From assembly GCA_003213175.1 (NCBI GenBank), contig QCNN01000002.1, positions 1 to 64,000 of the forward strand: a stretch of 64,000 nt of DNA. Reading direction: 5' to 3'. The position numbers and the translations under genes are program-made. Within the stretch, counting starts at the first letter, position 1. Each line of letters starts with the position of its first letter. This stretch comes from SAR116 cluster bacterium AG-426-B08. GTDB taxonomy: Bacteria > Pseudomonadota > Alphaproteobacteria > Puniceispirillales > Marisalimonadaceae. Below the pieces are notes generated by a model that saw only the letters and a program-made list of their open reading frames with translations, had not been told where the DNA came from and did not search any database. Shown here piece by piece: positions 3,830 through 53,760 of this stretch.

Positions 3830-3835
3830 CTTTTA

Positions 3836-3855
3836 AAAGTTAACATATTAACTTT
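3836..3855. repeat. Inverted repeat AAAGTTAA-CATA-TTAACTTT between the two MFS genes
   Basis: 8-bp perfect arms, 4-nt spacer, directly 5' of the MFS gene starting at 3829. Confidence 0.5.
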
Positions 3856-3898
3856 ATTAATAAAACCATAGTTAATTTTTAAATAATTAAATTTTTAA

Positions 3899-5116: not shown

Positions 5117-5123
5117 TATTAAA

Positions 5124-5582: not shown

Positions 5583-6532
5583 GTTTCTTTTAATTTTAAA
5601 TTTATTGAAATTAAATTTTCTTGAATAACTTTTTTCCAATCTTGAATAGTTTTACATTTATTTGCTCTATCAGGAAAGCATAAATTTCTTGAAGAGTTTA
5701 TCAAACCACAATTATAAAAATTTTCATGATCTTTATCTTTTTTCAAACCAAACTGTGCATCGGAAACAGTGCCACCTTGTGCACCAAAGCCAGGTATAAG
5801 AAAAGGAGCTGATGACAAAGTTTTTCTTAACTTTATTAGTTGTTCTTTGTATGTTGCTCCTGCTACAATCCCAATTGATGATAATCCTGATTTACCTTTA
5901 AATCTCTCAATCATTGGTTTTAGGTTATTAGCTAAATCTTCGTAAACTTTCTTATTATTATTTATTTTTTTTTCTTGAATATCATGTGACCCCGGATTGC
6001 TGGTATGCACGAGTATAAACAAACCTTTTTTATTTTTAGTCTTTTCTAAAAAAACTTCAATAGTATCCAAACCCAACCAGGGATTTACAGTCAGGGCATC
6101 ACATGGGTAAGGACAACTTTGATCAAAAAATGTATTTGCATAAGCTCTATTTGTACTTCCAATATCTCCTCTTTTTGCATCAATTATACATAATGTACTG
6201 GAATTTTTTATTAGTTTGCAAATTCTGGAGAGGATTTTCAGCCCCTCTGGACCTAATTGTTCAAAGAATGCTATTTGTAATTTGATAACTGGGACAAAAT
6301 CAAGACATGCCTCTATTAACGTTAAGGAAAATTTTTCTACAATTTTTATATTATCTATGCTGTAAATTTTTTTATTGATATTATATTTTGTTTGAAAGAC
6401 TTTTGGTATTAATTCTAAATGTGGGTCTAAACCAAAACATAAAAACGATTTCTTTTCTCTAATTGTGTGAAATAATTTATCTCCAAAATGATTATAATCT
6501 TTTAAATTTGAATTATTTATGTTTTTCATCAA
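5579..6532 (-). CDS. pyrF: orotidine-5'-phosphate decarboxylase, type 2
   Basis: [46 protein letters not shown] motifs. Confidence 0.93.
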
Positions 6533-6827
6533 ATTTATTCATCTGTTCAGGAGTTGCATCTTTTTGAAATTTATCTTTCCAGATTTTATGTGGCATTCCA
6601 TAAATTATTTCTCTTGCATTTTCTTTGTCAATTTTTATACCTTTTTCTTCAGATGCTTCCATATACCAATTCGATAAACAGTTTCTGCAAAACCCACTTA
6701 GATTCATTAGATCTATATTTTGAACATCTGTTCTATTTTGAAGATGTGAGACTAATCTTTTAAAAACTATTGATTCTATCTCTAATTTTATTTGATTTGT
6801 TAATAGGGTATCATTCTCCATATCCAT
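6513..6827 (-). CDS. DUF1244-family protein
   Basis: HLQNRTDVQNIDLMNLSGFCRNCLSNWY...YGMPHKIWKDKFQ pattern of the conserved DUF1244 family. Confidence 0.85.
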   Translation of the reverse strand: MDMENDTLLTNQIKLEIESIVFKRLVSHLQNRTDVQNIDLMNLSGFCRNCLSNWYMEASEEKGIKIDKENAREIIYGMPHKIWKDKFQKDATPEQMNKFDEKHK

Positions 6828-6920
6828 ATCCTCTTTAAAGTTAAATAAATATTGAAAATCAATTTATAACATATTAGCTTAATCTTAGTTTGAAAAGAAA
6901 ATTTAAAAATTATTCGCCTT

Positions 6921-7355
6921 ATGAAAGATAAAAATGATTTAAATTCATATAGATTTTCTCAAGTACGAAGTGCTAGAAATACAGAAATAGCTGAAGATTA
7001 TACAGAAATGATTGCAGATCTTACAAAAGAAACCGGAGAAGCAAGAGTTGTTGATTTAGCAGACAGCTTTGGTGTTACAAGTCCAACTGTTAACAGTATT
7101 ATCAGAAGACTGGTTAGAGAAGGTCTTGTTGAAAGTAAGCCATACAGGTCAATTTTTTTGACTAAAAAAGGAAAAGATCTAGCTGTTTTCTGCAAACAAA
7201 GACATGATATCGTTTATAAATTTTTGCTATCAATAGGAATTAAAAAAGATATAGCAAAAAATGATGCAGAAGGTATTGAACATCATGTAAGTCCTGAAAC
7301 TTTAGAAGTTTTTAAAAAACTCACAAAAAAAATAGAGAAAGAAAAACTATCTTAG
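6921..7355 (+). CDS. mntR: manganese-responsive DtxR-family regulator
   Basis: Winged helix VVDLADSFGVTSPTVNSIIRRLVREGLVE and metal-binding DAEGIEHHVSPETL. Confidence 0.88.
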   Translation: MKDKNDLNSYRFSQVRSARNTEIAEDYTEMIADLTKETGEARVVDLADSFGVTSPTVNSIIRRLVREGLVESKPYRSIFLTKKGKDLAVFCKQRHDIVYKFLLSIGIKKDIAKNDAEGIEHHVSPETLEVFKKLTKKIEKEKLS

Positions 7356-15493: not shown

Positions 15494-16273
15494 GTGGAAA
15501 ATTTTGTACTAATAGAAAAAGTTAATGATAGTATAGGGAAAATTATACTTTCAAATGGAAAAAAAATTAACCCTCTTTCTTTATCAATTTTAAAAAAAAT
15601 TAATAGAGAAATTACATTAATGTCTAAAAATAATAATATTAAAGTAATAATCATTTCATCAAATGGACCAGGTTTTTCTGCTGGACACGATCTAAAAGAA
15701 TTAAAAGATAATCAAAATAATAAAGAGTTTTTTTTAGATCTTTTTAGAGAGTGTTCTAATTTAATGCAAAAAATTATAAGTATTCCTCAACCTGTTATAG
15801 CTGAAGTCCCTGGTATAGCAGCGGCGGCTGGTTGTCAATTAGTTGCAACATGTGACTTAGCCATAGCTTCTGAAAAAGCTGAATTTATGACACCTGGAGT
15901 TAATATTGGTTTATTTTGTTCTACTCCAATGGTTGCGGTCTCTAGAAACGTAAGCAGAAAAAAAATGATGGAAATGCTTTTAATGGGTGAAAAAATGTCT
16001 GCAATTGAAGCAGAAAAATACGGATTAGTTAACAAAATTGTTCCTGAAAAAACACTCTCAGAAAAGACAATTGAAATAGCTAATATTATTGCTAAAAAGC
16101 CAAAATCTACTATTAAAATTGGTAAAGAGGCTTTTTATAAACAGTTAGAGATGCCATTAAATGAAGCTTATGAATATACATCTCAGGTAATGGCTCTAAA
16201 TATGTTAGAAAAAGATGCTAAAGAGGGTATAGAAGCATTTTTAGAAAAAAAAAATCCAATCTGGTCTAGTTAA
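15494..16273 (+). CDS. enoyl-CoA hydratase/isomerase family protein
   Basis: GPGFSAGHDLKEL, VPGIAAAAGCQLVATCDLAIAS; GTG start. Confidence 0.87.
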   Translation: MENFVLIEKVNDSIGKIILSNGKKINPLSLSILKKINREITLMSKNNNIKVIIISSNGPGFSAGHDLKELKDNQNNKEFFLDLFRECSNLMQKIISIPQPVIAEVPGIAAAAGCQLVATCDLAIASEKAEFMTPGVNIGLFCSTPMVAVSRNVSRKKMMEMLLMGEKMSAIEAEKYGLVNKIVPEKTLSEKTIEIANIIAKKPKSTIKIGKEAFYKQLEMPLNEAYEYTSQVMALNMLEKDAKEGIEAFLEKKNPIWSS

Positions 16274-18063
16274 ATAACTTTAAGTGCTTCACTTAAATCT
16301 AGAATAATATCATCGTGATGTTCTATACCTATTGATATTCTTAGAATTGAGTCTCCTACTCCGGCCCTCTCTCTTTGTTCAGAAGATAGTTGTCTATGTG
16401 TGGTTGATGCAGGATGAATAATCAAAGATTTGGTATCACCTACGTTAGCTAAATGAGAAAACAAATTACAATTTTCCACTAGTTTTTTTGCGCCTTCATA
16501 ACCTGATTTAACTGAAAAAGTAAACACAGAACCAAATCCAAAATCAAAATATTTTTTACCTAATTCATAAAAAGAACTTTCTTTGAAACCGGCCCACGAT
16601 ACAGAGTTAATTTTTTTATGATTTTTTAGAAAATTAGCTACTTTCGAGGCATTAAACATATGTTTTTGCATTCTTATTTTCAAAGTTTCTATTCCTGTCA
16701 AAGTTAAGTAGGCATTAAAAGGTGACATCGTAGTTCCTAAATCTCTTAAAACGCAAGCATGACAATAATTTATGTAAGCTAGGTTTCCAAAAGTTTCGTA
16801 AAAACTAATATTGTGATATGAGGTGTCTGGGGTTGTTAAACTATTAAAATCCCTTCCAGTCATCCAGTCAAAAGAACCAATGTCAACCACACAACCCCCC
16901 ATCGCGTTGCCGTGTCCTGATAAAAATTTTGTAGTAGAATATATAATTAAGTCAGCGCCATACTTCCCTGGTTTACAAATAGCTTGAGTTGCCATTGTAT
17001 TATCTATAATAAGAGGGATGCCAGCATGATGAGCTAGTTTAGATAAGTTTGTTATATCACTTACATTACCTTCTGGGTTTGCTAAGCTCTCAGCGAACAA
17101 TGCCCTTACTTTTTTACATTTTAAGGCTTGTTCAACTTGATTTAAGTCAGAAACATCTACAAGTTCTGCTTCCCAACCAAAATTCAGAAAACTTTTGGTA
17201 AATTGAGTAATAGACCCACCATATAATTTTGAACTTGCAACAATTTTTTTATTTGGTCCTAAGAGAGGATATAATGCTACTAATTGTGCTGCATGACCTG
17301 ACGAAACACAACAAGCGCCAATACCATCGTCAAGTGCAGCAATTCTTTGTTCCAATGCCGCTGTAGTAGGATTAGATAATCTAGCATAAATATTACCTGG
17401 TTCTTGTAAATTATATAAGCTAGCTGCATGATCAGCGTCATCAAACGTGAAAGCTGTAGTTTGATAAATAGGAAAGTTTCTTGAACCGGTTATTGGATCA
17501 GGGGAAGTTCCTGCATGAACCGATAAAGTTTCTAAATTTTTGCTTACAAAAAATCCATTATCTCTTTTTTTTGATTTACTTTTAGTTACCTCTTGTTTTT
17601 TGGAGGAAATTAAACCTGAATAAAAACCACCACTTCCTAAGTTACCAAAAATTCTTGAGTGTTCTATTTTTGGGCATTTATTAGAGATTGAAATAATATT
17701 GTGTTTTTCAACAAGTTTAATAGCCTCTTTATTAATCACACCAATTTGTGTCCAAAATACTTTAGCCTTTATTTTTACTGCCTCTTTAGCTATTTGAAGA
17801 CATTCATTGCTTTTTCTAAATACATCAACCATATCAATTGAGGTTTTAACAGAACTTAAATTTTCATAACATATTTCACCTAAAATATAATTTCCTGCTT
17901 CTTTAGGGTTTATAGGAATAATTTTGTAACCATTTTTTTGTAGATACTTCATTACAAAATTAGATGGTCTTTTCCAGTCTTTGCTAGCGCCTACTATAGC
18001 AATGGTTTGGACAGAAGATAAAATATTTGCAATTTTAAGATCATCTTTTTTTTTGTTATTCAT
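16270..18063 (-). CDS. fusion of N-terminal CoA-binding (YccU-like) domain with O-acetylhomoserine sulfhydrylase
   Basis: N-term TIAIVGASKDWKRPSNFVMKYLQKNGYKIIPINP (CoA-binding Rossmann); C-term SVHAGTSPDPITGSRNFPIYQTTAF...YSTTKFLSGHGNAMGG (PLP Cys/Met metabolism family). Confidence 0.9.
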   Translation of the reverse strand: MNNKKKDDLKIANILSSVQTIAIVGASKDWKRPSNFVMKYLQKNGYKIIPINPKEAGNYILGEICYENLSSVKTSIDMVDVFRKSNECLQIAKEAVKIKAKVFWTQIGVINKEAIKLVEKHNIISISNKCPKIEHSRIFGNLGSGGFYSGLISSKKQEVTKSKSKKRDNGFFVSKNLETLSVHAGTSPDPITGSRNFPIYQTTAFTFDDADHAASLYNLQEPGNIYARLSNPTTAALEQRIAALDDGIGACCVSSGHAAQLVALYPLLGPNKKIVASSKLYGGSITQFTKSFLNFGWEAELVDVSDLNQVEQALKCKKVRALFAESLANPEGNVSDITNLSKLAHHAGIPLIIDNTMATQAICKPGKYGADLIIYSTTKFLSGHGNAMGGCVVDIGSFDWMTGRDFNSLTTPDTSYHNISFYETFGNLAYINYCHACVLRDLGTTMSPFNAYLTLTGIETLKIRMQKHMFNASKVANFLKNHKKINSVSWAGFKESSFYELGKKYFDFGFGSVFTFSVKSGYEGAKKLVENCNLFSHLANVGDTKSLIIHPASTTHRQLSSEQRERAGVGDSILRISIGIEHHDDIILDLSEALKVI

Positions 18064-39919: not shown

Positions 39920-41569
39920 ATGTTGAATAGATTTGACAATTATGATGAAGTTTATAACAGTTTCAATTGGTCTATTCCAGATATCTATAACATTGCGAGT
40001 GACACTATAGATAAATATTCTCATACTGAAAGGATTGCATTAAAACACATTTCAAATAATGGTAATTGTAAAGAGTATTCTTTTAAATATTTTTTTGAAA
40101 AATCAAATAGACTAGCAAATGTTTTAGACAGTATTTGTTTAGATCAAAATGACAGAGTAGGCATTATTTTAGGTCAGTGTCCTGAAACTCTAATTAGTCA
40201 TATTGCATGTTTTAAAAGTGGAAAGATTTCTATACCACTGTTTAGTTTATTTGGAGATAATGCTCTATTATTTAGACTTAAAGATTCTGACGCATCTACT
40301 GTAATTTGTGATGACATCAGTTTAGATAAAATTCTAAGAATCAAAGAATTCTTACCTAATTTAAGAAATATTATTTCCATAAATCTAAAAAAAAGTAATG
40401 ATGTAGTATTTAGTTTTTTTGAACTAATTGAAAAAGCAAGCTCCAATTATAATAATATTAAGTCAAAATTTAATGACCCTGCTTTAATAATATATACTTC
40501 TGGTACAACTGGCGACCCTAAAGGGGCTGTTCTACCTCACAAAGTTTTGCTTGGTCATATACCAGGAGTGGAAATGCCACATGAATTTCTAAGTTCAGAT
40601 TTATCGGCAAAAGATTGTTTTTGGACACCTGCCGATTGGGCTTGGATTGGAGGATTATTTGATGTATTGATGCCTTCACTTTATTTTGGTATTCCAGTAA
40701 TTTCATATAGGGCTCCTAAATTTGATCCAGAATTCACTTTTAATCTTCTTGAAAAGTATGAAGTTAAAAACACTTTCCTTCCCCCTACAGCATTAAAAAT
40801 AATGAAATCTTTCAGACAGAAATTGAAAAATAATAAATTAAAGTTGAGAACAGTTGGTTCTGGTGGAGAATCGCTAGGCGAAGAATTATTAAATTGGGGC
40901 AGAGAGGTTTTAAATGTAGGTATTAATGAATTTTATGGTCAAACTGAATGTAATTTAACCATATCAAATTGTGGTTTGATAATGAAACAAAAATTAGGAT
41001 CAATCGGAAAACCTGTTCCTGGTCATAAAGTTAAGTTGATGAATAGAGAAGGTGATTTCGTCAAGAGTGAAGAAGAAGGTCAAATAGTTGTAAATTCTGA
41101 CTCACCATCTACTTTTTTAAGATATTGGAAAAATAAAGAAGAGACAGAAAAAAAAATTATTGATGGATGGCTTCAAACTGGAGACTATGGTATTTTTGAT
41201 AAAGAGGGATATTTTTATTTTAAAGGAAGAAAAGACGACTTGATAAATAGTGCTGGTTATAGAATAGGACCAAGTGAAATTGAGAACTCAATTTTATCAA
41301 TAAAAGATGTTGAAATGGTAGCTGTTATTGGTGTTCCAGACGATTTAAGGGGAGAAATCGTTAAAGCAGTGGTTGTTCCAAAAAATATTTCAAATGTTAA
41401 ATCACAAAATAATTTGCTAAAAGAGAAAATTAAGTCCCATGTTAAAAATAAATTAGCGGCTCATGAATATCCTCGCATAATTCAGTTTGTATCCGAATTA
41501 CCTCTAACTACCACTGGTAAAATAAAAAGAAATATTCTTAGACAAAATCATCTTAAGGAATTGAAATGA
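39920..41569 (+). CDS. AMP-dependent acyl-CoA synthetase (ACSM-like)
   Basis: IIYTSGTTGDPKGAVLPHKVL, FYGQTECNLT, GWLQTGDYGIFDKEGYFYFKGRKDDLINSAGYRIGPSEIE. Confidence 0.9.
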   Translation: MLNRFDNYDEVYNSFNWSIPDIYNIASDTIDKYSHTERIALKHISNNGNCKEYSFKYFFEKSNRLANVLDSICLDQNDRVGIILGQCPETLISHIACFKSGKISIPLFSLFGDNALLFRLKDSDASTVICDDISLDKILRIKEFLPNLRNIISINLKKSNDVVFSFFELIEKASSNYNNIKSKFNDPALIIYTSGTTGDPKGAVLPHKVLLGHIPGVEMPHEFLSSDLSAKDCFWTPADWAWIGGLFDVLMPSLYFGIPVISYRAPKFDPEFTFNLLEKYEVKNTFLPPTALKIMKSFRQKLKNNKLKLRTVGSGGESLGEELLNWGREVLNVGINEFYGQTECNLTISNCGLIMKQKLGSIGKPVPGHKVKLMNREGDFVKSEEEGQIVVNSDSPSTFLRYWKNKEETEKKIIDGWLQTGDYGIFDKEGYFYFKGRKDDLINSAGYRIGPSEIENSILSIKDVEMVAVIGVPDDLRGEIVKAVVVPKNISNVKSQNNLLKEKIKSHVKNKLAAHEYPRIIQFVSELPLTTTGKIKRNILRQNHLKELK

Positions 41570-42858
41570 GTGAAAAATATAAATTTGATACTTTATCTTT
41601 GCATGCTGGTCATGTTCCAGATAAAGAAACTGGTTCAAGGGCTGTTCCGATTTATCAGACTACATCTTATGTTTTCAATGACTCAGATGAAGCTGCCGCT
41701 TTATACAACATGGAAGTTGGCGGTCATTTATATACAAGAATTTCAAATCCAACAATCAGTGTTTTAGAACAAAGATTAGCAGCCTTGGATGGAGGAGTTA
41801 GTTGTATAGCTTGTGCCAGTGGAATGGCAGCAATGCACTTAGTAATTTCTGCAATATGTAGTGCCGGAGATCACATAGTTGCTTCTAACAAAATGTATGG
41901 AGCAAATATAAATCTTCTGCAGCATACAATGCCGCGATTTGGAATTGAAACTGATTTTGTTAATCCTAACAATCTAGATGAAATAAAAAAAGCAATTAAG
42001 AAAAATACAAAATTAGTTTTTGGTGAAGTAATTGGTAATCCAGGTTTAGATGTTATGGATATCCCTTCTGTTGCTGAAATTTGCAAAGAGAACAATGTAC
42101 CATTGGTTATTGATGCTACATTTAATACACCATATTTAATGAAACCAATTGATTATGGTGCAAATATAATTATTCACTCTTTAACAAAATGGTTGGGTGG
42201 GCATGGTATTGCCATTGGAGGAGCAATTATTAATGGCGGAAACTTTGATTGGAGTAACAAGAAAAAATTTAGCACTATATCTGGAACACATTTTGCTTTG
42301 GATGGAATAAGTTTTTGGGAAGAATTTGGACCATCAGCTTTAACATCAAAGATAAGAGCTGAAGGTATGTATAATTTTGGACCAACTTTATCTCCTATGA
42401 ATGCTTTCCATATTTTACAAGGAATAGAAACGTTACCACTAAGAATGAAAAAACATATGGAAAATACAAATGAATTAATAAAATTTTTATCAGAACACGA
42501 AGCGGTTTCATGGGTTAAACATCCAAGTTTAGATAGTCATCCAGATTATGGTGTTGCTAAGAAAATTTTACCAAAAGGTGCTGGATCTGTAATTGTGTTT
42601 GGTGTAAAGGGAGGAAGAGAAGCTGGAAAAAATTTTATAGAGTCTGTTCAATTATCTTCACATTTAGCAAATGTAGGTGATGCAAAAACTTTACTTATTC
42701 ACCCGGGAAGTACTACTCATTCTCATTTAAATTCAGAGGCCATGCGATCAGCAGGATTAACAGATGATTTAATCAGGTTGTCAGTAGGGTTGGAAGATGT
42801 TGATGACATTAAAAAAGATTTTGAAATAGGGTTAAAATCAGTTTTGAAATCTAGGTAA
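41566..42858 (+). CDS. metY: O-acetylhomoserine aminocarboxypropyltransferase (sulfhydrylase)
   Basis: LSLHAGHVPDKETGSRAVPIYQTTSYVF, HSLTKWLGGHGIAIGG, HPGSTTHSHL. Confidence 0.88.
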   Translation: MSEKYKFDTLSLHAGHVPDKETGSRAVPIYQTTSYVFNDSDEAAALYNMEVGGHLYTRISNPTISVLEQRLAALDGGVSCIACASGMAAMHLVISAICSAGDHIVASNKMYGANINLLQHTMPRFGIETDFVNPNNLDEIKKAIKKNTKLVFGEVIGNPGLDVMDIPSVAEICKENNVPLVIDATFNTPYLMKPIDYGANIIIHSLTKWLGGHGIAIGGAIINGGNFDWSNKKKFSTISGTHFALDGISFWEEFGPSALTSKIRAEGMYNFGPTLSPMNAFHILQGIETLPLRMKKHMENTNELIKFLSEHEAVSWVKHPSLDSHPDYGVAKKILPKGAGSVIVFGVKGGREAGKNFIESVQLSSHLANVGDAKTLLIHPGSTTHSHLNSEAMRSAGLTDDLIRLSVGLEDVDDIKKDFEIGLKSVLKSR

Positions 42859-42878: not shown

Positions 42879-43679
42879 GTGTATTTAAAATTTAAAAATA
42901 TTGAGACTTTTATTTCGACAGGGGGAAAAAAATTAAATTCCAATCAACCTACGATTTGCTTTATTCATGGAGCTGGTCAAAATCATTTTTCTTTTGTTCA
43001 ACAAACTAGATATTTTGCAAGTAGGGGGTTCAATGCAATTGCACCTGATTTTCCTGGACATGGTTTTTCAAAAGGACAGTGTAATTCTTCTATAGAAGAT
43101 GATACAATATGGTTGTCAGAACTTCTTCAAGAAATTGGAATAAATGAATTTGTTATCGCAGGACATTCGCAAGGATGCCTTACTGCTATAGAGTTTAATA
43201 AGTTAAGTCTTAAATCATTGAAAGGAATAATTTTTATTGCTGGTTCTGCCAAAATACCTGTTAATGATTTTTTAATAGAGAAGGCAAAGAATGAACCTGA
43301 AAAGGCATATAAGTTGATGGTAACTTGGGGGCACGGAAAACACGGATCCTTTTCTATTTCTGAATTTCCCGGTCATCATCATCTTGGAGAGGGTTTCAAA
43401 GTAATGGAAATGAACCATAAATCAGCTTTAATTAATGATTTAAGTTCATGTAATAAATACGAAAAGGGTCTGGATGAATTAAAAAACATTAATTTAGATT
43501 GCTTGGCTATTCTTGCTAAATTTGATTTAATGACCCCTTTGAAATTTGGTAAAAAAATGGTAGAATATATTAATTCATGTGAGTGCCACGTTTTAGATTG
43601 CGGTCATTTTCTTCCAACAGAAAAACCAAAAGAATTGAATAAAATTATTTATCAATATCTAAAAAATTTAGATATATGA
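42879..43679 (+). CDS. alpha/beta hydrolase
   Basis: CFIHGAGQNHFSF, nucleophile elbow IAGHSQGCLTA, LDCGHFLPTEKP; GTG start. Confidence 0.85.
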   Translation: MYLKFKNIETFISTGGKKLNSNQPTICFIHGAGQNHFSFVQQTRYFASRGFNAIAPDFPGHGFSKGQCNSSIEDDTIWLSELLQEIGINEFVIAGHSQGCLTAIEFNKLSLKSLKGIIFIAGSAKIPVNDFLIEKAKNEPEKAYKLMVTWGHGKHGSFSISEFPGHHHLGEGFKVMEMNHKSALINDLSSCNKYEKGLDELKNINLDCLAILAKFDLMTPLKFGKKMVEYINSCECHVLDCGHFLPTEKPKELNKIIYQYLKNLDI

Positions 43680-45244
43680 ATACTTCACAACCGTCATTAA
43701 GTCTTGAAAAACCTGAAAATTGGGTAATTTCAAAAATTATTTTAAATCAATTTAAATCAGATCCAAATTTTGAGATTATTGAATTTGTCGATCATGAAAA
43801 GTGGACTTTCAAAAAACTAATTTCTCTAGGCTTAAAAGTATCTCATAATATTAATAAACTGAATGTTAAAAAAGGTGAATCCATTATTGTTATGATAGAT
43901 GATCCAAAATTATTTATACCTATTTGGATTGGTGCTTCATTTCTGGCAGTAACATTTGTAGCAATTAATACAGCTTTAAGAGGTGAAGTTTTATATCATC
44001 AGATAGAAACTTCGTCCCCAAAACTAATTATAGCAGAGGAAAAGTATTACGATGAAATTATGAAAATTAATTTTGATAGAAAAAAAACGAAACTAATATC
44101 ACCATTAGATTTTAATTATTCGAGAGAATTAGCAGAAACTCAGATAGTTGAAAGTAACAATTATGATGTCTCTTGTGTAATGTTTACAAGTGGGACTTCA
44201 GGACCGTCAAAGGGTGTGATAATGCCAAATTGTCATTGTGTGTTATTTGCAATTGGTACAATTGAAAATTATGAATTGAAAGAAAATGATAAGTTTTACA
44301 TATGTCTACCACTATTTCATGCTAATGGATTATTTATGCAACTTTTAGCATGTATCATAAATAAAAATAAAGCAATAATAAGAGGTAAGTTTTCAGCATC
44401 TAATTGGCTTAAAGATATCATTAAATTTAAAGCTACCCACACAAATATGTTAGGTGCTGTAGCAAACTTTGTAGTTGCTCAAAAACCTACTTCTTTGGAT
44501 AAAAAACATCATTTAAAGTTAATTGGTTCAGCTCCTCTGCCCAAGGAACCAGAGAAAATATTTAGAACTAGATTTGATGTTAAACACGTTGTTCCTCTAT
44601 ATGGAATGACAGAAGTTAATATTCCTTTATATGGGAAAAAAGATGAATTAGGTAATGGAACATGTGGGAAATTGTACAAAAAGTATTTTGAAGTTGAGAT
44701 TAGAGATCCAGTTTCTGATCAAAAGGTAAAAAATGGTGAAGTCGGCGAAATAATGGTTAGATCCTTAGTACCATATGGATTTATGCAAGGATATCTTGGT
44801 CTACCCGAGAAGTCTTTTGATTCATTTAGAAATTTTTGGTTTCATACTGGGGATGCAGGAATTAAAAAAAGTAATGGTCATTTTATTTTTGTTGATAGAA
44901 TTAAAGATTGTATCAGAAAAAGAGGTGAAAATATCTCTTCTTATGAGGTTGAACAAGCCTTTTTAAAAATTCCTGAAGTTACAGAAGCTGCAGCCTATGC
45001 TGTACCAGCAGAAGGTGGTGATGGAATGGAGGATGATGTAATGGTTTCATTATTATTAAATAAGAACTCAGAAATTAATTATTTGAACTGGATTGAAAAA
45101 GCTAAGTTAAATTTGGCAAATTTTGCTATTCCAAGATATATTAGAATTATGAGTGATTTTCCAAAAACACAAACAGGAAAAATACAAAAACATTTGTTAA
45201 AAAAAGAAGGCGTAACAAATGATACTTGGAAAAACATTAATTAA
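43676..45244 (+). CDS. AMP-dependent acyl-CoA ligase (crotonobetaine/carnitine-CoA ligase-like)
   Basis: VMFTSGTSGPSKGVIMPNCH, PLYGMTEVNIPLYG, FWFHTGDAGIKKSNGHFIFVDRIKDCIRKRGENISSYEVE. Confidence 0.88.
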   Translation: MNTSQPSLSLEKPENWVISKIILNQFKSDPNFEIIEFVDHEKWTFKKLISLGLKVSHNINKLNVKKGESIIVMIDDPKLFIPIWIGASFLAVTFVAINTALRGEVLYHQIETSSPKLIIAEEKYYDEIMKINFDRKKTKLISPLDFNYSRELAETQIVESNNYDVSCVMFTSGTSGPSKGVIMPNCHCVLFAIGTIENYELKENDKFYICLPLFHANGLFMQLLACIINKNKAIIRGKFSASNWLKDIIKFKATHTNMLGAVANFVVAQKPTSLDKKHHLKLIGSAPLPKEPEKIFRTRFDVKHVVPLYGMTEVNIPLYGKKDELGNGTCGKLYKKYFEVEIRDPVSDQKVKNGEVGEIMVRSLVPYGFMQGYLGLPEKSFDSFRNFWFHTGDAGIKKSNGHFIFVDRIKDCIRKRGENISSYEVEQAFLKIPEVTEAAAYAVPAEGGDGMEDDVMVSLLLNKNSEINYLNWIEKAKLNLANFAIPRYIRIMSDFPKTQTGKIQKHLLKKEGVTNDTWKNIN

Positions 45245-45278: not shown

Positions 45279-46196
45279 ATGAATAAACTTAAGTATACCG
45301 GATGTTGGCCAGTTGCTCCTACTCCATTCAAGGAAAATGAAGAATTGGATCTTGAAGGAATGAAGAGGGTTTTGGATTGCATGATAGATCAAAAAGTTGA
45401 TGGTATTTGTATCTTGGCAAATTATTCAGAGCAATTTTTGTTATCTGATTCTGAAAGAGAAGTTTTAACTAGATTATGTTTAGAACATGTTGATGGTAGA
45501 GTTCCAGTTATAGTCACGATTAGTCATTTTTCAACTGATGTAGTTTTTAAAAGGGCGTTACAAGCAAAAAGTTTAGGTGCTAGCATGGTTATGATGATGC
45601 CCCCATATCATGGTGCCTTACTAAGAGGAAATATAGATCAAACTTTTAAGCAGTTTAAAAAAGTTGATGAGGCAGGCATAACAATAATGATTCAAGATGC
45701 TCCATTGTCCGGGGTAGAATTAAGTGTTGAACTTTTAGTAAAAATGGCTAAGGAAATCGAAAACGTAAAATGTTTTAAGATAGAATGTTCGCAAGCAGCA
45801 GAGAAACTGCGTAATTTGATTAAAATCGGAGCAAGTTTTATCGAAGGACCTTTTGACGGGGAAGAAGGTATAACTCTATATGAGGATTTAGAAGCAGGGG
45901 CAACTGGTAATATGAGTTCAGCTATGTATCCAGACTTAATAGTTCCAATAGTTAACAATTATCTTAATAATAACCATCAAGAAGCAGAAAGGGGTTATAA
46001 TGAAATTTTACCGTTGATAAATTATGAAAATAGACAATGTGGTTTTAGGGGAACAAAGTTTATCTTTAAAGAAGGTGGTGTTATAAAATCTGACTTGTGT
46101 AGACAGCCTGTTCAGCAAATGAGTGATGATACAAAAAGAGGTTTATTAAAAATAATAAATAACTTTGATTTAGTTGCAATGAATTGGGGAAAATAG
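45279..46196 (+). CDS. dihydrodipicolinate synthase (DapA)/NAL superfamily protein, not canonical DapA
   Basis: GCWPVAPTPFKENEELDLEGMKRVLDCMIDQ; Schiff-base Lys likely in CFKIEC; canonical YNxP replaced by QDAP. Confidence 0.85.
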   Translation: MNKLKYTGCWPVAPTPFKENEELDLEGMKRVLDCMIDQKVDGICILANYSEQFLLSDSEREVLTRLCLEHVDGRVPVIVTISHFSTDVVFKRALQAKSLGASMVMMMPPYHGALLRGNIDQTFKQFKKVDEAGITIMIQDAPLSGVELSVELLVKMAKEIENVKCFKIECSQAAEKLRNLIKIGASFIEGPFDGEEGITLYEDLEAGATGNMSSAMYPDLIVPIVNNYLNNNHQEAERGYNEILPLINYENRQCGFRGTKFIFKEGGVIKSDLCRQPVQQMSDDTKRGLLKIINNFDLVAMNWGK

Positions 46197-46222
46197 AAAT
46201 TGTTTAATAATAGGAGGTTTAT

Positions 46223-46726
46223 TTGTCTTATTCATTAGAAGATCTTGCATTAGATATCAAAAATACATTAGAAACTCATGGTATAGAAAAAGGTTCATCT
46301 ACTATTTGTTATTATGTTAAAAAAGCCTTAATGGATCAAAATTTTATTCCAACACACCTTCCTGACCGAAAAGAAGGTGAATTAGAAAGAGAAGTACTTT
46401 ATGAAGATAAAGATTATGGCTTTTGTATTTGTGGTCATGTATATCCAAAAATGGCAGAAGGTCACCCTCATGATCATGGACCAAGCTGGGCCATATATGG
46501 TCAAGCGACTGGCGAAACAGAAATGACAGATTGGGAAATTGTTAAAAAAGAAAATGACATAACTACTGTTAAACCTAATAAAACATACTTAATGAAACCA
46601 GGAGACGTTCATTTTTATAATATAGGAGCTGTTCATTCACCAATGAGAAAAGATCCTGTTAGGCTCCTAAGAATAGAAGGTGAAAATCTGGATAATGTTA
46701 AAAGATCAAAAATTAAAGCTTTGTAA
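46223..46726 (+). CDS. cysteine-dioxygenase-like cupin
   Basis: AEGHPHDHGPSWAIYGQATGETEMTDWEI and GDVHFYNIGAVHSP metal-binding cupin motifs; TTG start after AGGAGG. Confidence 0.75.
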   Translation: MSYSLEDLALDIKNTLETHGIEKGSSTICYYVKKALMDQNFIPTHLPDRKEGELEREVLYEDKDYGFCICGHVYPKMAEGHPHDHGPSWAIYGQATGETEMTDWEIVKKENDITTVKPNKTYLMKPGDVHFYNIGAVHSPMRKDPVRLLRIEGENLDNVKRSKIKAL

Positions 46727-48272
46727 ACCGACTGAATTCTTGGTCATCCATTCTACTTAATAATTTTTTTTCCCATGATAAATATGCTTTAGCATGGCTT
46801 ATATTTCCTTTATGTCTTTTATGAGTGTGATATACGAAGTCAATGCAGTCAGATGTTTTTGGATTATATGGAGTTTGAGTATATAAATCAGGGTAAGTCA
46901 AATACCCTTTTTTATCAAAACAATGATAAAAAACATTTACATTTAATATTGTCTTGATAGATTTAGTTATTAATTGTGCTTTTTTTGGTTCATCATAAAT
47001 TATTAATATATTTTTATCTTTAACCAAATTTATAAATCTTAAATTAGATCTAGTAGTCCATTTTGATTTTTTCAAATGTAATTTTCGATAATTATGACTA
47101 TTTCTAACATCAAGCATTGTAAATTTAGCGAATTTTTTCAAATCATTTAATTTAATATTTTTTATTTTCATAAGCTTAAAATTAATATTCTTATTCTCAA
47201 AATATTTATCAAGTTTTTCTGGTTTATCGTTATACAAATATACTTCATATCCCATTTGTTTTAACCAAGAAGCTGTCATAGTTGACCTTATTAGTTCACC
47301 GTCATCCAAAAGAACAATTTTTGAATTCCACACAGCAATGAAATTGTCAGTTGCCTGAATCAATTGTCCTCCAGGTACGTTTCTGATATTTGGAAAAATT
47401 GATAAATTTTTTTTAGGTTCAGTTACATTAAATACATATGTAGTTGAATTTTTTTCTTCGAGAAATATTTTTGTCTTATTAAAATTAATTGTTTTTAGAT
47501 TAAACTTTTTAATTAAGTATCTTGATTTTTCTTCAAAAAGTTTTTTCTTTTTTAACTTAGATAAACAAAGACGTTTATTTTGATTATGTTGAAGTTTTAA
47601 ATTTGCAAGAAACCATCCCTGAGTTCCATTTTCTAGTGCTTTCACAGAATTTTTTATTCCATAATTTATAAGATTTTGAGTTCCAATTATAGATCTTGTT
47701 CTTCCAGCACAACCAATTATTATTTCAGTGTGTGAATCTATTTTATCTATTATTCTAACTGGTATTTCCATATTTGGACAATTGATGGCTGTAGGAATAT
47801 TCATTGTTCTAAATTCTTCGATCGTTCTACCATCTAAAACGAGTATGTTTTTATTACTTTTGATTTTCTTTGCTAATTCGCGAGGCTTAATATGTGGTGT
47901 TTTATACTCTTCTTCTACCCATTCACCAAAGGCTTTACTGGGAATGTTAATACCATCAAAGAGTTCATATCCTTCCTTCTTCCATCCAAAAACTCCATTC
48001 TCTAAAATACGTACATTATTATATCCAATATTTTTTACTTCTTCATAGACGATTTCTGACAAACCATCATTATGATCAAATAATATAATTAAAACACTTT
48101 TATTTGGCACTAACTCTTGAATTTTTGCTTCAAAAATACTGTAGGGTATAGATATTGAATAAAATGGATGTCCACTCGCATGAAGTCCAATCTCACGGAC
48201 GTCAATTAGTGATATCTCTTGATTTAAGCTGAATAAATGTTTTGTTTGCTTTGCAGTAATTCTTTTTTGCAT
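46713..48272 (-). CDS. multi-domain rhodanese-like sulfurtransferase
   Basis: Repeated rhodanese-like blocks (ISLIDVREIG; ILVLDGRTIEEF; FTMLDVRNSHNYR); only one clear active loop, CAGRTRS. Confidence 0.85.
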   Translation of the reverse strand: MQKRITAKQTKHLFSLNQEISLIDVREIGLHASGHPFYSISIPYSIFEAKIQELVPNKSVLIILFDHNDGLSEIVYEEVKNIGYNNVRILENGVFGWKKEGYELFDGINIPSKAFGEWVEEEYKTPHIKPRELAKKIKSNKNILVLDGRTIEEFRTMNIPTAINCPNMEIPVRIIDKIDSHTEIIIGCAGRTRSIIGTQNLINYGIKNSVKALENGTQGWFLANLKLQHNQNKRLCLSKLKKKKLFEEKSRYLIKKFNLKTINFNKTKIFLEEKNSTTYVFNVTEPKKNLSIFPNIRNVPGGQLIQATDNFIAVWNSKIVLLDDGELIRSTMTASWLKQMGYEVYLYNDKPEKLDKYFENKNINFKLMKIKNIKLNDLKKFAKFTMLDVRNSHNYRKLHLKKSKWTTRSNLRFINLVKDKNILIIYDEPKKAQLITKSIKTILNVNVFYHCFDKKGYLTYPDLYTQTPYNPKTSDCIDFVYHTHKRHKGNISHAKAYLSWEKKLLSRMDDQEFSRFTKL

Positions 48273-48344
48273 AATATATTTTTATATCATTATGAATTAT
48301 TAATAACTATTATTAAATTAATAGAAAGTGATTTAGAGGCTACT

Positions 48345-50000
48345 ATGTCAAATTATAATGTAGGTCAATTGGTTTCAGATTTTTTGACAGAAAATAAAGT
48401 TGATACAGCCTTTGGTGTTGTTTCAGTTCATAATATTCCTATGTTAGACGCCATAGCAAAAACTAATAGAATTAAATTCGTTCCAGCTAGAGGAGAAATG
48501 GGAGCTGGGCATATGGCTGACGGTTATTCTCGTTCCAAGAAAGGAATAGGGGTTGTTTTTACTAGCACTGGACCAGGTGCTGCAAATATTACTGGTGCAC
48601 TTGTTGAAGCACGTTTTGCAGGAACACCTCTTCTTCATATTACTGGTCAAACTGCAACAGAAAATTTAGATAAAAATCAGGGCACGGTTCATGAAGTACC
48701 TAATCAATTAGAAATGTTGAAGTCAGTATCAAAAAAAGCATTTAGAATAAGTAATCACGAAGATGCATTGTCAATTTTAGAGGAGGCCTTAAGATGTTGT
48801 TTAACTGCCCCAACTGGCCCAGTTTCAGTAGAAATTCCAATTGATATTCAAAGAACCATTATTAAAAAGCCTCAGGATATTCCTATAGTTAAAGAGGATC
48901 AGACCTCATTATTTTTAGGTGATCTAGAAACATTGAAGAAAATCGAAAAATCAATAAAAAATTCAAATAGGAAAGTCTTGTGGATTGGAAATGGAGCTAA
49001 AACACTAAAAGCAGAAGTTAAAAAATTTATTGAACTTGGTTTTGCAGTTGTTACAAGCACACAAGGTAAAGGTGTGGTAGAAGAACAGGATGATATGTGC
49101 TTAGGATCTTTTAATGCTGTTCCCTTGGTTGAACAGTTTTATTCAACTGTTGATTTGATGTTAGTGGTTGGAAGTAGATTGAGAGGGCATGAAACAAGAG
49201 ATATGTCATTAAAACTTCCAAAAAACCTAATCCAAATTGATATAGATCCAGATGCACAAAATAGAACTTATGAAACTTCTTTATTCCATTTAGGGGACGC
49301 AAAGAAAGTTTTGAATGAGCTTTTATTTAGATTAAAGGACCTCGCTAAACCATCAAATGAATGGCGTAAAGAAATAAAATCTTTGAAAGAAGAAATATTA
49401 AATGATTACAAAGCTTTTCTTGGAGTTTATAAGGATTTTCCTGATATTGTAAGACAGTGTTTACCTAAAGGAGGAAGATGGATTAGAGATGTAACAATTT
49501 CAAATAGCACTTGGGGTAATAGAATGATGCCTATATATGATTCTAGTGAAAATATTTATCCTGTCGGAGCAGGAATAGGTCCTGGAATGTCACTAGCAAT
49601 AGGTGCTTCATTAGCAAAAGAAGACGTTAAATCCATAGCAATGTGTGGCGATGGTGGCTTCATGCTTAATTTACCTGATTTATGGACTGCAGTAGAGGTT
49701 AATAGTAACGTTGTGTTTTTAGTAATGAATGACAAAGGGTATGGTGTTATTAAACATATTCAAGATAGTTTGTATGGAGGAAGAAAAAATTATGCGGATT
49801 TAACTGTTCCTAACTTTTCAGAATTAGCAAAAACAGTTCGTATGAATTATTTATTGGTAACTTCCAGCTCAGAATTTAGAGAAAAATTAGAGAAAGCGTT
49901 TAAACTATCCGGTCCAGTCTTATTAGAGATAGATGTTTTAAGTGTTGGAGATATGCCTAGATATTTCATGCCTCCCCCATTTGCTTCAAAAGAAAAATAA
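48345..50000 (+). CDS. ThDP-dependent enzyme, acetolactate synthase large-subunit-like
   Basis: RGEMGAGHMADGYSR, TGPGAANITGALVEAR, GDGGFMLNLPDLWTAVEVNSNVVFLVMNDKGYG; internal ATG at 48345 preferred over track start 48237. Confidence 0.88.
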   Translation: MSNYNVGQLVSDFLTENKVDTAFGVVSVHNIPMLDAIAKTNRIKFVPARGEMGAGHMADGYSRSKKGIGVVFTSTGPGAANITGALVEARFAGTPLLHITGQTATENLDKNQGTVHEVPNQLEMLKSVSKKAFRISNHEDALSILEEALRCCLTAPTGPVSVEIPIDIQRTIIKKPQDIPIVKEDQTSLFLGDLETLKKIEKSIKNSNRKVLWIGNGAKTLKAEVKKFIELGFAVVTSTQGKGVVEEQDDMCLGSFNAVPLVEQFYSTVDLMLVVGSRLRGHETRDMSLKLPKNLIQIDIDPDAQNRTYETSLFHLGDAKKVLNELLFRLKDLAKPSNEWRKEIKSLKEEILNDYKAFLGVYKDFPDIVRQCLPKGGRWIRDVTISNSTWGNRMMPIYDSSENIYPVGAGIGPGMSLAIGASLAKEDVKSIAMCGDGGFMLNLPDLWTAVEVNSNVVFLVMNDKGYGVIKHIQDSLYGGRKNYADLTVPNFSELAKTVRMNYLLVTSSSEFREKLEKAFKLSGPVLLEIDVLSVGDMPRYFMPPPFASKEK

Positions 50001-50005
50001 TTTAA

Positions 50006-50767
50006 ATGAACTTAGATACCTTTATGGAATTTCCAAAAGACTTATCAAGTTTTGCAATTTATTTTTTGATTTTTTCAAGTATGTTTACATCTTTTGTAAC
50101 CGCCGCGTTTGGAATAGGTGGAGGTGCTATTTCACTAGGTTTTCTTGCCATTTATCTTAATCCCATATACCTATTACCTGTTCATGGCGCTGTTCAAATA
50201 GGTTCTAATTTTGGTCGTACTCTTTTAATGCTTAAAGATGTCCAAAAAGAACCAATTATTCCATTTTTAATTGGAAGTTGCATGGGTTCTTTGTTAGGTG
50301 GTGTTTTGTTTATTCAATTTCCTTCTTCGCTAATTCAATTACTTGTTGCAACTTTTATTTTATGGACAGTTTTTGGTAAAATGCCAGCTATAAAATTGCA
50401 GTACATTGTTTTCGGGGGTATATTTTCAAGTTTTTTAACTATGTTTTTTGGTGCAACTGGACCATTTATTTCTGCGATGGTTAAAACAATAAAATTAGAT
50501 CCCTTAAAACATATAGCAACTCATTCATCTTTAATGACAATACAGCATATAATTAAAGTTATAGTTTTTGGATTATTAGGTTTTAGTTTCGCGGAATATT
50601 TTAATTTAATTTTAATTATGATTTTAAGCGGTCTTTTAGGAACTTACATTGGTAAAAAAGTTTTAGTTAATTTTGGAAAAAAATATTTTAAAGTAGTTCT
50701 TAATACTATTTTAACTTTAATTTCAATAAACTTGATAATAAATAGTCTAATGACTTGGTTGATATAA
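50006..50767 (+). CDS. TauE/SafE (TSUP) family membrane exporter
   Basis: TSFVTAAFGIGGGAISLGFLAIYLNPIYLLPVHGAVQIGSNFGR and further TM segments. Confidence 0.88.
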   Translation: MNLDTFMEFPKDLSSFAIYFLIFSSMFTSFVTAAFGIGGGAISLGFLAIYLNPIYLLPVHGAVQIGSNFGRTLLMLKDVQKEPIIPFLIGSCMGSLLGGVLFIQFPSSLIQLLVATFILWTVFGKMPAIKLQYIVFGGIFSSFLTMFFGATGPFISAMVKTIKLDPLKHIATHSSLMTIQHIIKVIVFGLLGFSFAEYFNLILIMILSGLLGTYIGKKVLVNFGKKYFKVVLNTILTLISINLIINSLMTWLI

Positions 50768-50768
50768 A

Positions 50769-52253
50769 TTATTTTTTTTGTTTTGTTATCCAAGAAAATA
50801 TCATTGGACCACATAAACCTAAAAAAGCAAAAATCAAAAACATTAGAGCAAGAGGTTGAGTTAATATCATCCACCAAGCTCCATCAAACATTTTTAATGA
50901 GTGTTGTAAATTAGTTTCAACCATTTCTCCCAAAATAAGGCCCACTGCTATTGGAGCAACAGAAAAACCAAATCTTCTTGCAAAAAAACCAATTACACCA
51001 AATATCAAAGCTAACCATACATCTAATAATTGACCTTGAAATGCATATGCACCTATCACTGACAAAGCAAATACTATAGGCCAAAGAATTGCTGTAGGAA
51101 CTAAAGAAACTCTCGCAAATATTTTTGCAGCATACAAGCCCATTAACATAAACATCACGTTTGCAATAAACATTGAACCAAAAATTTGGTAAACTTTTTC
51201 AACTTGCTCGGTAAATAAATAAACACCTGGTCTAAGTCCATGAACCATTAAACCGACTAATATAATTGCTGTTGTACCACTTCCGGGTATGCCTAAAACC
51301 ATTGTTGGGACCATGGCTCCACCTGTGGCAGCATTATTAGCTGCTTCTGCACCTGCTATTCCTTCTATAGAGCCCTTACCAAACTCTTTTTTATTTTTTG
51401 ACCATCTTCTTGCCTCAGAATATCCAATCATAGATGCAACAGTTGCACCTTCTGCTGGAAGAACTCCTATGAATGTTCCTATGCCACATGATCTTAAAAT
51501 TGTTTTCCATATTTTTTTGTAGTCTTCTTTGGTAGGTAGTTTGACTGCTTTCATAGCAACAGTTTTAATAATTTTGTCCACAGTTTTTGATTGGACTAAT
51601 AATTCTGAAATGGCAAATAAACCAATGAATATAGGGACAAAGTGTAGTCCTTCATAAAGTTCATAATTTCCAAACATAAAACGCTCAATCCCAGTTACCC
51701 TCTCTGCTCCTATAGTTGATAGCCAAACTCCAAAAATTCCACCAATTAAATTTTTGACTGCTCCACCTGCACTAATACTGGCAAGCATTGACAATCCAAA
51801 AACAGTAAGAGCAAAATATTCAGGAGATCGAAATTCATAGGCAACTCTAGCCAACAGTGGGGCTGCAAAACATAGAATTAAAACTGAAAATATCCCTCCT
51901 ACTGTGCTTGAAATAACAGCAATTCCTAGAGCTCTTCCTGCCTCACCTTTTTGAGCAAGAGGATATCCATCAAAAGTAGTTGCTGCTGCAGCAGAAGTTC
52001 CGGGGGCATTAATTAATATTGCTGTTATTGAACCAGCAAATGTAGCAGAAACATAAATTGTCGCTAAGACTGCAATTGCATGAACAGGATCCATTGTCAA
52101 AGTAAATGGTAAAAGTAATGCAGCGCCTGTTGTTGCGCCTAGTCCAGGCAAAACACCAATTATAACTCCTAAAATGGTAGTAACAAATATTAACCCTAAT
52201 AAATAAGGATCTACGACAACTGATGCCATTGCTCCTATTGCTTGTTCAAACAT
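50769..52253 (-). CDS. tctA: tripartite tricarboxylate transporter large permease
   Basis: GVLPGLGATTGAALLLPFT, GVLPAEGATVASMIGYSEARRWSK, GIPGSGTTAIILVGLMVHGLRPG. Confidence 0.93.
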   Translation of the reverse strand: MFEQAIGAMASVVVDPYLLGLIFVTTILGVIIGVLPGLGATTGAALLLPFTLTMDPVHAIAVLATIYVSATFAGSITAILINAPGTSAAAATTFDGYPLAQKGEAGRALGIAVISSTVGGIFSVLILCFAAPLLARVAYEFRSPEYFALTVFGLSMLASISAGGAVKNLIGGIFGVWLSTIGAERVTGIERFMFGNYELYEGLHFVPIFIGLFAISELLVQSKTVDKIIKTVAMKAVKLPTKEDYKKIWKTILRSCGIGTFIGVLPAEGATVASMIGYSEARRWSKNKKEFGKGSIEGIAGAEAANNAATGGAMVPTMVLGIPGSGTTAIILVGLMVHGLRPGVYLFTEQVEKVYQIFGSMFIANVMFMLMGLYAAKIFARVSLVPTAILWPIVFALSVIGAYAFQGQLLDVWLALIFGVIGFFARRFGFSVAPIAVGLILGEMVETNLQHSLKMFDGAWWMILTQPLALMFLIFAFLGLCGPMIFSWITKQKK

Positions 52254-52264
52254 TTAATTTCCTT

Positions 52265-52729
52265 CTACCCATAATAAATATTCGTAAGAATTCCTCTTGG
52301 AAACCTAATTTTTAAGACTAAATCAAAAAGCATAAAAATTAGAGCAGGGGTTATAGAGGCAGTTAACAAGGCTACCCAAATTCTTTTTTCACCCCATAAA
52401 ACACACATTAAAAACATTACAATAAAGATTCCGATAAACATATCTGTAAAAACAGTTAATAAATAAAATACAAGAAATAAAATCATACTTCCCCAAGTTG
52501 GAAATCTTTCTAGAGGAATCGGGTTAGGATGATTTTTATAAAATTGAAGTGTTAACACGGCAACTAAAATTAGATTTAAAATCATTAAAAAAATTGGAAA
52601 AGATCTTGCTTGCATACTGTCACCAACTATCATTTCTGGTGATGTATCAAGTTGCAAAGCAATTGCAATTACTACAAAAGAAAAAATTGCTAAGAATAAT
52701 GGTACAAAATATATATTTTTTTTAATCAT
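52265..52729 (-). CDS. tctB: tripartite tricarboxylate transporter small permease
   Basis: 4-TM small protein between tctA and tctC. Confidence 0.82.
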   Translation of the reverse strand: MIKKNIYFVPLFLAIFSFVVIAIALQLDTSPEMIVGDSMQARSFPIFLMILNLILVAVLTLQFYKNHPNPIPLERFPTWGSMILFLVFYLLTVFTDMFIGIFIVMFLMCVLWGEKRIWVALLTASITPALIFMLFDLVLKIRFPRGILTNIYYG

Positions 52730-52739
52730 GATTTTAAAA

Positions 52740-52769
52740 AATGCTCTCCTTAATTAAAAAGAGAGCATT
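52740..52769 (-). terminator. Stem-loop between tctC and tctB
   Basis: 9-bp perfect arms AATGCTCTC/GAGAGCATT, 12-nt loop, followed by TTTT on the minus strand. Confidence 0.65.
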
Positions 52770-52782
52770 GGTCTAAAAGTAT

Positions 52783-53760
52783 TTACTTCATTAAGCCCAT
52801 TTCTTTTAAAGCAGGCCCAAATTCACCAACCATAAATGCAATTTGTTTGCCCCATGGTCCTGAAGGTTGAGGTGATGTACTGTCTAATCCTGAATTAGCC
52901 AAGTATGCTTGATACATTGAATGTTTCATAGCTTTTTGAATACCTTTTTCTAATGCAGCAACTCTTGCTTTATCAACACCAGCGTGTGTTACAAAACCTC
53001 TTGTAGTTGACAGAACAAGGTCAATACCTAATTCCTTTGCAGTTTTAGCTTTTGGAATTGGTGCCATACCATTTTCAGCTAAAATAACAAGTGGGCAAAT
53101 ATCTCCTGCCTCTACAGGTGCAGCAGCTTCAGATAAGTTTAATGTTCCTACATCAACTTCTCCAGCTACTAATCTAGTTGCTAATTCTCCACCACCTTTA
53201 AATGGAATATATTTAGGCATTTTTTGACCCAATCTTTTTGCCCAAAGAAATACTGTTATGTGGTCAATTGTACCAGTATGTGTTCCACCAAAAGTTATCT
53301 TGTCACCCTTTTTCATACCAGCAACAAAATCTTCAGGCGTTTTATAAGGACTTTTTTTACAATTTACCATTAAAATTTGTGGATCATTAGTACCTCTAGA
53401 TATAGGTGCCATGTCACTTACTTTAAGCTTTGTTTTACCCATAGCCATGGTAATAGCATGCCCAACAGTAAATGTTAAAATCGTGTTTCCATCTGCTGGT
53501 CTTGTCATGAAATAATTCATTGCAGCAGCACCACCGCCACCTCTTTTATTAACAACAACCATATCCTGTTTAAGCGTTCTTCTAGAACGTAGCATCATCA
53601 TTCTTGAATTAACGTCTGTTCCACCACCTGCTCCAGCATGTGTAACAACTTCTATAGCTGGTTTTTTTGCCGCTAGAGAAGATGTTGAAGAAAAAGCAAT
53701 TAATCCAGTTAGAACAGTCAAACTTGATCCTATTGCTAATAGTGTTTTAGATTTAATCAT
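52783..53760 (-). CDS. tctC: tripartite tricarboxylate transporter substrate-binding protein
   Basis: Signal peptide; IEVVTHAGAGGGTDVNSRMMM, VVNKRGGGGAAAMNYF. Confidence 0.9.
   Translation of the reverse strand: MIKSKTLLAIGSSLTVLTGLIAFSSTSSLAAKKPAIEVVTHAGAGGGTDVNSRMMMLRSRRTLKQDMVVVNKRGGGGAAAMNYFMTRPADGNTILTFTVGHAITMAMGKTKLKVSDMAPISRGTNDPQILMVNCKKSPYKTPEDFVAGMKKGDKITFGGTHTGTIDHITVFLWAKRLGQKMPKYIPFKGGGELATRLVAGEVDVGTLNLSEAAAPVEAGDICPLVILAENGMAPIPKAKTAKELGIDLVLSTTRGFVTHAGVDKARVAALEKGIQKAMKHSMYQAYLANSGLDSTSPQPSGPWGKQIAFMVGEFGPALKEMGLMK

Follow-up and report, generated by a model that had tools for sequence, protein, structure and literature searches.

In a stretch of 64,000 nucleotides from SAR116 cluster bacterium AG-426-B08 (contig QCNN01000002.1; hereafter the window), which is part of an incomplete SAR116 (Puniceispirillales) genome, the contiguous genes at 45279-53760 encode, in this order, a DapA-family enzyme (+), a cupin (+), a rhodanese (-), a thiamin diphosphate (ThDP)-dependent enzyme (+), a TauE-family permease (+) and TctA, TctB and TctC (all -). 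A preliminary description had taken them as one candidate pathway for organic sulfur compounds, and all the genes that it named are indeed present, side by side and in the superfamilies that it gave them: DHDPS, rhodanese (four stretches), ThDP N/M/C, TauE, TctA, TctB and TctC domains all passed the Pfam cut-offs, while the cupin was placed by fold and profile searches. The mixed strands nevertheless divide the block into at least four transcription units. The DapA and cupin genes form the 3' end of a tight six-gene run on the + strand (acyl-CoA ligase, O-acetylhomoserine sulfhydrylase family enzyme, alpha/beta hydrolase, acyl-CoA ligase, DapA and cupin, with gaps of at most 35 bp or else overlaps), and since this run begins at 39920, a block that is taken from 45279 cuts through it. 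The only element of the stretch with a conserved sulfur link is the pair made of the three-histidine cupin and the four-domain rhodanese, and the stretch as a whole is rather probably a mosaic, in which this conserved sulfur module stands beside a separate sugar-acid module, and not one sulfur pathway.

Searches of Pfam, of NCBIfam and, using phmmer, of the PDB all gave no match to the cupin, and annotated relatives sought on plasmids gave weak matches or none. Its AlphaFold2 model (pLDDT 96.4) has as closest PDB folds those of mercaptosuccinate dioxygenase (Msdo, 8vni) and of the 3-mercaptopropionate dioxygenases Av3MDO (6xb9) and Pa3MDO (4tlf), with E-values of 3e-10 to 1e-9 and TMq of 0.78-0.82; CDO is also among the best fold matches, and the top 43 Foldseek matches comprise only thiol dioxygenases and plant cysteine oxidases (PCO). 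Msdo 8vni was again the first match (E 2e-4) when a profile of the cupin family was searched against PDB sequences, and a profile-profile comparison with Msdo-type cupins gave an E-value of 2e-8 over 165 columns, so that the earlier label of a CDO-like cupin is backed by both kinds of search. Residues H83, H85 and H138 are invariant in 43/43 cupin homologues and align with the iron-ligand histidines of Msdo-type cupins, and R161, invariant across the same 43 sequences, is aligned to Arg168 of Av3MDO, which holds the substrate carboxylate (PMC8050391). Judging from the model and from these residues, the cupin most likely works like a mercapto-carboxylate dioxygenase.

The neighboring gene encodes four rhodanese domains with a catalytic cysteine in domain 2 only (C188 in CAGRTRSIIG), and the C.GRTRSI motif is invariant in 16 rhodanese homologues, down to 21% identity. 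Outside the SAR116 family of the window, only the cupin and the rhodanese stay together. They are neighbors on the same strand in 8/10 loci of a second SAR116 family, and the pair is adjacent in 12/36 loci from taxa that include Hyphomicrobiaceae, Bradyrhizobium, Arenicellales and a gammaproteobacterium, where a contig edge cuts many of the loci short; where the two genes are adjacent, their relative orientation varies among lineages. When 338 evenly sampled alphaproteobacterial genomes were compared, the cupin was found in 40, the rhodanese in 62 and both in 34 (Fisher p 1e-23, without phylogenetic correction).

Homologous rhodaneses (30-35% identity over the full length) were also found on annotated plasmids. 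In Aminobacter the gene comes after metC and a gene annotated as "cysteine dioxygenase family". In Caballeronia it is preceded by a dioxygenase gene and metC and followed by a second rhodanese and, on the opposite strand, a TauE gene. In Paraburkholderia and Cupriavidus, whose loci were read directly, the rhodanese likewise follows an Msdo-type cupin, and metC accompanies such a cupin beside the rhodanese in Aminobacter, Caballeronia and Paraburkholderia. The Cupriavidus cupin, a clear Msdo, and the Caballeronia cupin match Msdo 8vni with E-values of 5e-75 and 4e-37, respectively. This betaproteobacterial and Aminobacter arrangement matches the published Msdo cluster, which comprises Msdo, a cystathionine beta-lyase, a rhodanese and a PAAT transporter; the sulfinosuccinate of that pathway decomposes to succinate and sulfite (PMC5373536). 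Two other plasmid contexts were seen. On Agrobacterium pTi plasmids, the same multi-domain rhodanese comes after a sulfonate ABC transporter (4953-7062 of the retrieved locus), and the cupin that adjoins it was set aside, as it gave no match to the window's cupin. On a Marinobacter plasmid, an 83-residue fragment that looks like the C-terminal half of a cupin of Msdo type lies directly before the rhodanese (4748-4999 of the retrieved locus); the dioxygenase gene seems to be broken there, with the rhodanese next to it intact.

Fold, profiles, co-occurrence and the partner gene of the Msdo clusters all support the earlier proposal that the cupin oxidizes thiols and that the rhodanese is its partner, and the two proteins are probably a widespread, uncharacterized pair that oxidizes the sulfur of small mercapto-acids. 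Several observations weigh against this. Of the 43 cupin members, 42-43 lack the Ser-His-Tyr motif found in CDO, MDO and Msdo and have a conserved L148-R150-E152 instead, and identity to solved thiol dioxygenases is just 11-18%. The two genes are adjacent in just 3 of the 34 sampled genomes that carry both, their co-occurrence is uncorrected for phylogeny or genome size, and no further sulfur gene is found repeatedly near the pair in alphaproteobacteria. Since the Ser-His-Tyr motif is reported to be rate-enhancing but not essential, and is absent from ADO and PCO (PMC8503633, PMC8050391), its loss does not exclude a dioxygenase activity. Because it is also one of the defining features, we describe the cupin as thiol-dioxygenase-like and do not file it as a member of CDO, MDO or Msdo. 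Altogether, the pair provides good evidence for a thiol-carboxylate-oxidizing fold with its partner, in a new subfamily.

Conservation among close relatives was used as a background control. The genes of the block are 96-100% identical in SAR116 cluster bacterium AG-426-I14, and in about 40 SAR116 genomes of the window's family every contig of sufficient length carries the whole block in the same gene order. The exception is an insertion between the cupin and rhodanese genes in some of them, made up of a CaiB-type CoA-transferase gene plus roughly another 0.8 kb. The remaining window genes, from 640 to 63089, are likewise collinear in the same-family genomes checked. With synteny extending over the whole window in that family, conservation of the block there is uninformative and was rejected as functional evidence; evidence for a functional link must therefore come from outside the family. 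The joint absence of the cupin, DapA and ThDP genes from six SAR116 genomes can be explained by the same gap in incomplete assemblies and was not used either. Across the family, divergence inside the block is uneven (78-98% identity for TctA/TctC, 44-54% for the rhodanese and 55-69% for TauE).

The "DapA-family" assignment holds at the level of the DHDPS superfamily but not at that of the enzyme: the protein matches L-2-keto-3-deoxyarabonate dehydratase (7c0c/3fkk) end-to-end with an E-value of 8e-92, a much closer match than that to DapA. A sister SAR116 family has the orthologue of this protein (60% identity) beside orthologues of TctA, TctB and TctC (83, 58 and 74%), in a cluster that also holds PdxA-like and GntR-type genes, an enolase-superfamily protein closest to sugar-acid dehydratases and an aldehyde dehydrogenase that most resembles 2,5-dioxovalerate dehydrogenases, the last two both scoring below curated cut-offs. 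In distant alphaproteobacteria, a set of TctC/TctA, enolase-superfamily, DapA and PdxA-like genes was found in 3/12 loci, and a fourth has it without Tct. No sulfur gene was seen among these sister-family and distant loci. The cluster that recurs in alphaproteobacteria comprises TctC/TctA(/TctB), enolase-superfamily, L-2-keto-3-deoxyarabonate dehydratase-like, GntR and PdxA-like genes; the window's own family has no close orthologue of the enolase or aldehyde dehydrogenase partners (best 32% and 38%). Since DapA and Tct share an operon elsewhere with PdxA-like genes and a dehydratase of the enolase superfamily, the DapA-like enzyme is likely part of a sugar-acid module. TctA, TctB and TctC, all above Pfam cut-offs, make a complete tripartite tricarboxylate transporter (TTT) set, and because TctC identity is high between the window and the sister-family cluster, its ligand would be of the same kind in both contexts, a sugar acid.

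The ThDP enzyme scores 699.1 bits against NF005470 (PRK07064; cut-off 495) and 240.7 bits against the NCBIfam IlvB model (cut-off 538), and in a tree its place is within the fully supported PRK07064 clade, separate from the clades of IlvB and Xsc. It is absent from the TIGR03457 (Xsc) matches at 1e-60. Six genomes of the window's family, including two with a completeness of at least 99%, have no Xsc above the cut-off, and other genomes of the order do have one. The taurine/Xsc route was thus rejected, in agreement with the earlier view that the enzyme is not a recognizable Xsc. Orthologues of the ThDP enzyme in other alphaproteobacteria (47-51% identity) have no constant neighbors, so gene neighborhoods were discarded as a clue to its substrate, and no conserved neighborhood links it to the cupin or the rhodanese. 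The start of its gene is likely 48345 and not 48237, as homologues begin at 48345. The TauE protein passes its Pfam model with 68.7 bits (cut-off 32.6), which is a superfamily call only, and as a putative exporter it could possibly carry sulfite.

Table 1. Genes of the cupin-containing run and of the adjoining block (window coordinates)
Feature	Coordinates	Strand	Remark
Acyl-CoA ligase	39920..41569	+	Opens the run that the cupin closes
Cys/Met-metabolism pyridoxal phosphate (PLP) enzyme, O-acetylhomoserine sulfhydrylase family	41566..42858	+	NF006004
Alpha/beta hydrolase	42879..43679	+	Assigned by eye; no NCBIfam match
Acyl-CoA ligase	43676..45244	+	Second ligase of the + run
DHDPS-superfamily enzyme, 305 aa, L-2-keto-3-deoxyarabonate dehydratase homologue	45279..46196	+	7c0c, E 8e-92
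CDO/Msdo-like three-histidine cupin, 167 aa, TTG start	46223..46726	+	Core gene
Four-domain rhodanese, 519 aa	46713..48272	-	Core gene; convergent with the cupin, 14 bp overlap
ThDP-dependent enzyme, PRK07064 family, 551 aa	48345..50000	+	NF005470
TauE/SafE-family permease, 253 aa	50006..50767	+	Directly 3' of the ThDP gene
TctA, large permease subunit of TTT transporter	50769..52253	-	Pfam
TctB, small permease subunit	52265..52729	-	Pfam
TctC, periplasmic binding protein	52783..53760	-	Pfam; 74% identical to TctC of the sister-family sugar-acid cluster

Elsewhere in the window, adjacent and related MFS transporter genes (407 and 405 aa) at 2606-5116 (-) look like a tandem duplication. A second O-acetylhomoserine sulfhydrylase family protein (597 aa) is encoded at 16270-18063 (-), apparently fused to an N-terminal CoA-binding-like domain, so that two enzymes of this family lie within one 64 kb window.

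The mosaic that we favor rests directly on homology, predicted fold, conserved residues, co-occurrence and gene contexts elsewhere, and from these we infer catalysis, substrate, direction of flow, sulfite release, the role of the rhodanese and the transporter ligands. The cupin would then most likely be an iron thiol dioxygenase acting on a small mercapto-carboxylate, with H83, H85 and H138 binding the iron and R161 the substrate carboxylate. O2 would convert the thiol to a sulfinate, which would release sulfite alone or after activation, and the rhodanese, through Cys188, may handle the sulfur, for example by passing sulfane sulfur to sulfite to give thiosulfate. TctABC and the DapA-like dehydratase would be part or a remnant of a separate module for the uptake and dehydration of a sugar acid, the ThDP enzyme would be of the 2-oxo-acid type, and TauE would be an anion exporter that could carry sulfite out.

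If all the genes instead served the single pathway first proposed, TctABC would import a thiol- or sulfo-carboxylate, the cupin would oxidize it, the ThDP or DapA-like enzyme would cleave it and TauE would export sulfite. The genes are contiguous and kept together in some 40 genomes of one family, TTT binding proteins for a thio-dicarboxylate are known (thiodipropionate in Variovorax, PMC8102459), and TauE or TctC-like genes stand beside Msdo/rhodanese in the Caballeronia and Cupriavidus clusters. The synteny of that family, however, extends over the entire 64 kb, and the DapA and TctABC orthologues recur in sulfur-free clusters of sugar-acid type. Once the rhodanese is allowed for, the cupin is not associated with DapA (p 0.95) and only little with the ThDP enzyme, whose co-occurrence with it is no longer significant (p 0.11), and the window's TauE has no BLAST match to that of Caballeronia. 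A lack of conserved co-occurrence, which was to count against the proposal, is seen for DapA, ThDP, TauE and TctABC and not for the cupin and the rhodanese; clustering of the ThDP enzyme with IlvB, also named as counting against it, is not seen. We regard a pathway running through all the genes as distinctly unlikely. A different alternative concerns the cupin itself, which could be a non-oxygenase three-histidine cupin (isomerase, lyase or sensor) acting on a carboxylated metabolite, its link to the rhodanese reflecting general sulfur homeostasis. Cupins are functionally versatile, nearly all members have L-R-E in place of Ser-His-Tyr and no curated family covers this one; yet the top fold and profile matches are all thiol dioxygenases, the Arg168 equivalent is invariant and the rhodanese partner is the same as in the Msdo clusters, so that we hold this alternative to be unlikely.

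The PLP enzyme at 41566-42858 is a further possible sulfur link. That enzyme might fix or release sulfide or methanethiol, while the cupin and rhodanese would oxidize the resulting low-molecular-weight persulfides, feeding the Sox/sulfite oxidation of SAR116. The PLP gene does share its + run with the cupin, Msdo clusters contain a cystathionine beta-lyase, and sox/sulfite oxidation has been reported for SAR116 (PMC8547437, PMC12262181); but outside the window's SAR116 family the PLP gene does not lie close to the pair, and NCBIfam assigns the enzyme to O-acetylhomoserine aminocarboxypropyltransferase, a biosynthetic activity, which leaves such persulfide handling very unlikely. Dimethylsulfoniopropionate demethylation (DmdB/DmdC) had also been considered for a ligase at 34747 and a dehydrogenase at 32952. 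It was dropped because the ligase scores only 296 against 3-(methylthio)propionyl-CoA ligase (cut-off 822), its best NCBIfam match being a generic acyl-CoA synthetase (834 bits). A search for adenylylsulfate reductase (aprA) as a possible sink for the sulfite gave no match, but neither did its control, so that this negative carries no weight.

Tentatively, and with somewhat less confidence than in the mosaic, we propose that the cupin founds an unrecognized class of small-molecule thiol dioxygenases, in which Arg-Glu would replace Ser-His-Tyr and which, partnered by the rhodanese across Alphaproteobacteria including SAR116, would turn mercapto-carboxylates into sulfite, a route lying outside the family libraries searched. 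Two published studies of sulfur metabolism in SAR116 deal with sox, sulfite oxidation and sulfonate monooxygenases (PMC8547437, PMC12262181); the word "rhodanese" appears in neither of them, and "dioxygenase" does not appear in the one checked for it. About 1 in 8 of the alphaproteobacterial genomes sampled carry the cupin, as does the abundant SAR116 clade. If it oxidizes a thiol, this family without a Pfam or NCBIfam model would contribute sulfite to the ocean sulfur cycle from a source not yet counted, and small-molecule thiol dioxygenases could function with Arg-Glu in place of Ser-His-Tyr. Telling the cupin-rhodanese pair apart from the sugar-acid genes also keeps the block as a whole from being annotated with the wrong pathway.

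Each part of the stretch can be set beside a known system. Several relatives of the ThDP enzyme in the PRK07064 family, from beta- and gammaproteobacteria and from Nitratireductor, belong to operons for ring-hydroxylating dioxygenases or aldehyde dehydrogenases, which is not so in the window. The DapA-like protein keeps the QDAP.SG and FKIE motifs and the Schiff-base lysine region of L-2-keto-3-deoxyarabonate dehydratase, but, unlike in the pathway of that enzyme, no alpha-ketoglutarate semialdehyde dehydrogenase or pentonate dehydratase gene adjoins it in the window. As for the cupin, it lacks the Ser-His-Tyr motif and the curated-family match of 3MDO (Av3MDO 6xb9, Pa3MDO 4tlf), and its HDHGxSW loop is one residue longer than HxHxxW; what it shares with 3MDO is the fold (TMq 0.78-0.82), the three histidines and the alignment of R161 with Arg168, at the same spacing from the Tyr159/E152 position.

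Compared to the Msdo cluster of Variovorax paradoxus B4 and Advenella mimigardefordensis DPN7 (PMC5373536), the window's cupin is only about 16-18% identical to Msdo and has lost Ser-His-Tyr, and its gene is convergent and not co-transcribed with that of the rhodanese, without LysR or PAAT ABC genes. The PLP enzyme is of a different subfamily (O-acetylhomoserine sulfhydrylase, about 25% identical to MetC of the Msdo-type clusters) and lies several genes away. In both systems, however, a cupin of thiol-dioxygenase fold that keeps the three histidines adjoins a homologous multi-domain rhodanese, with a PLP enzyme of Cys/Met metabolism in the neighborhood.

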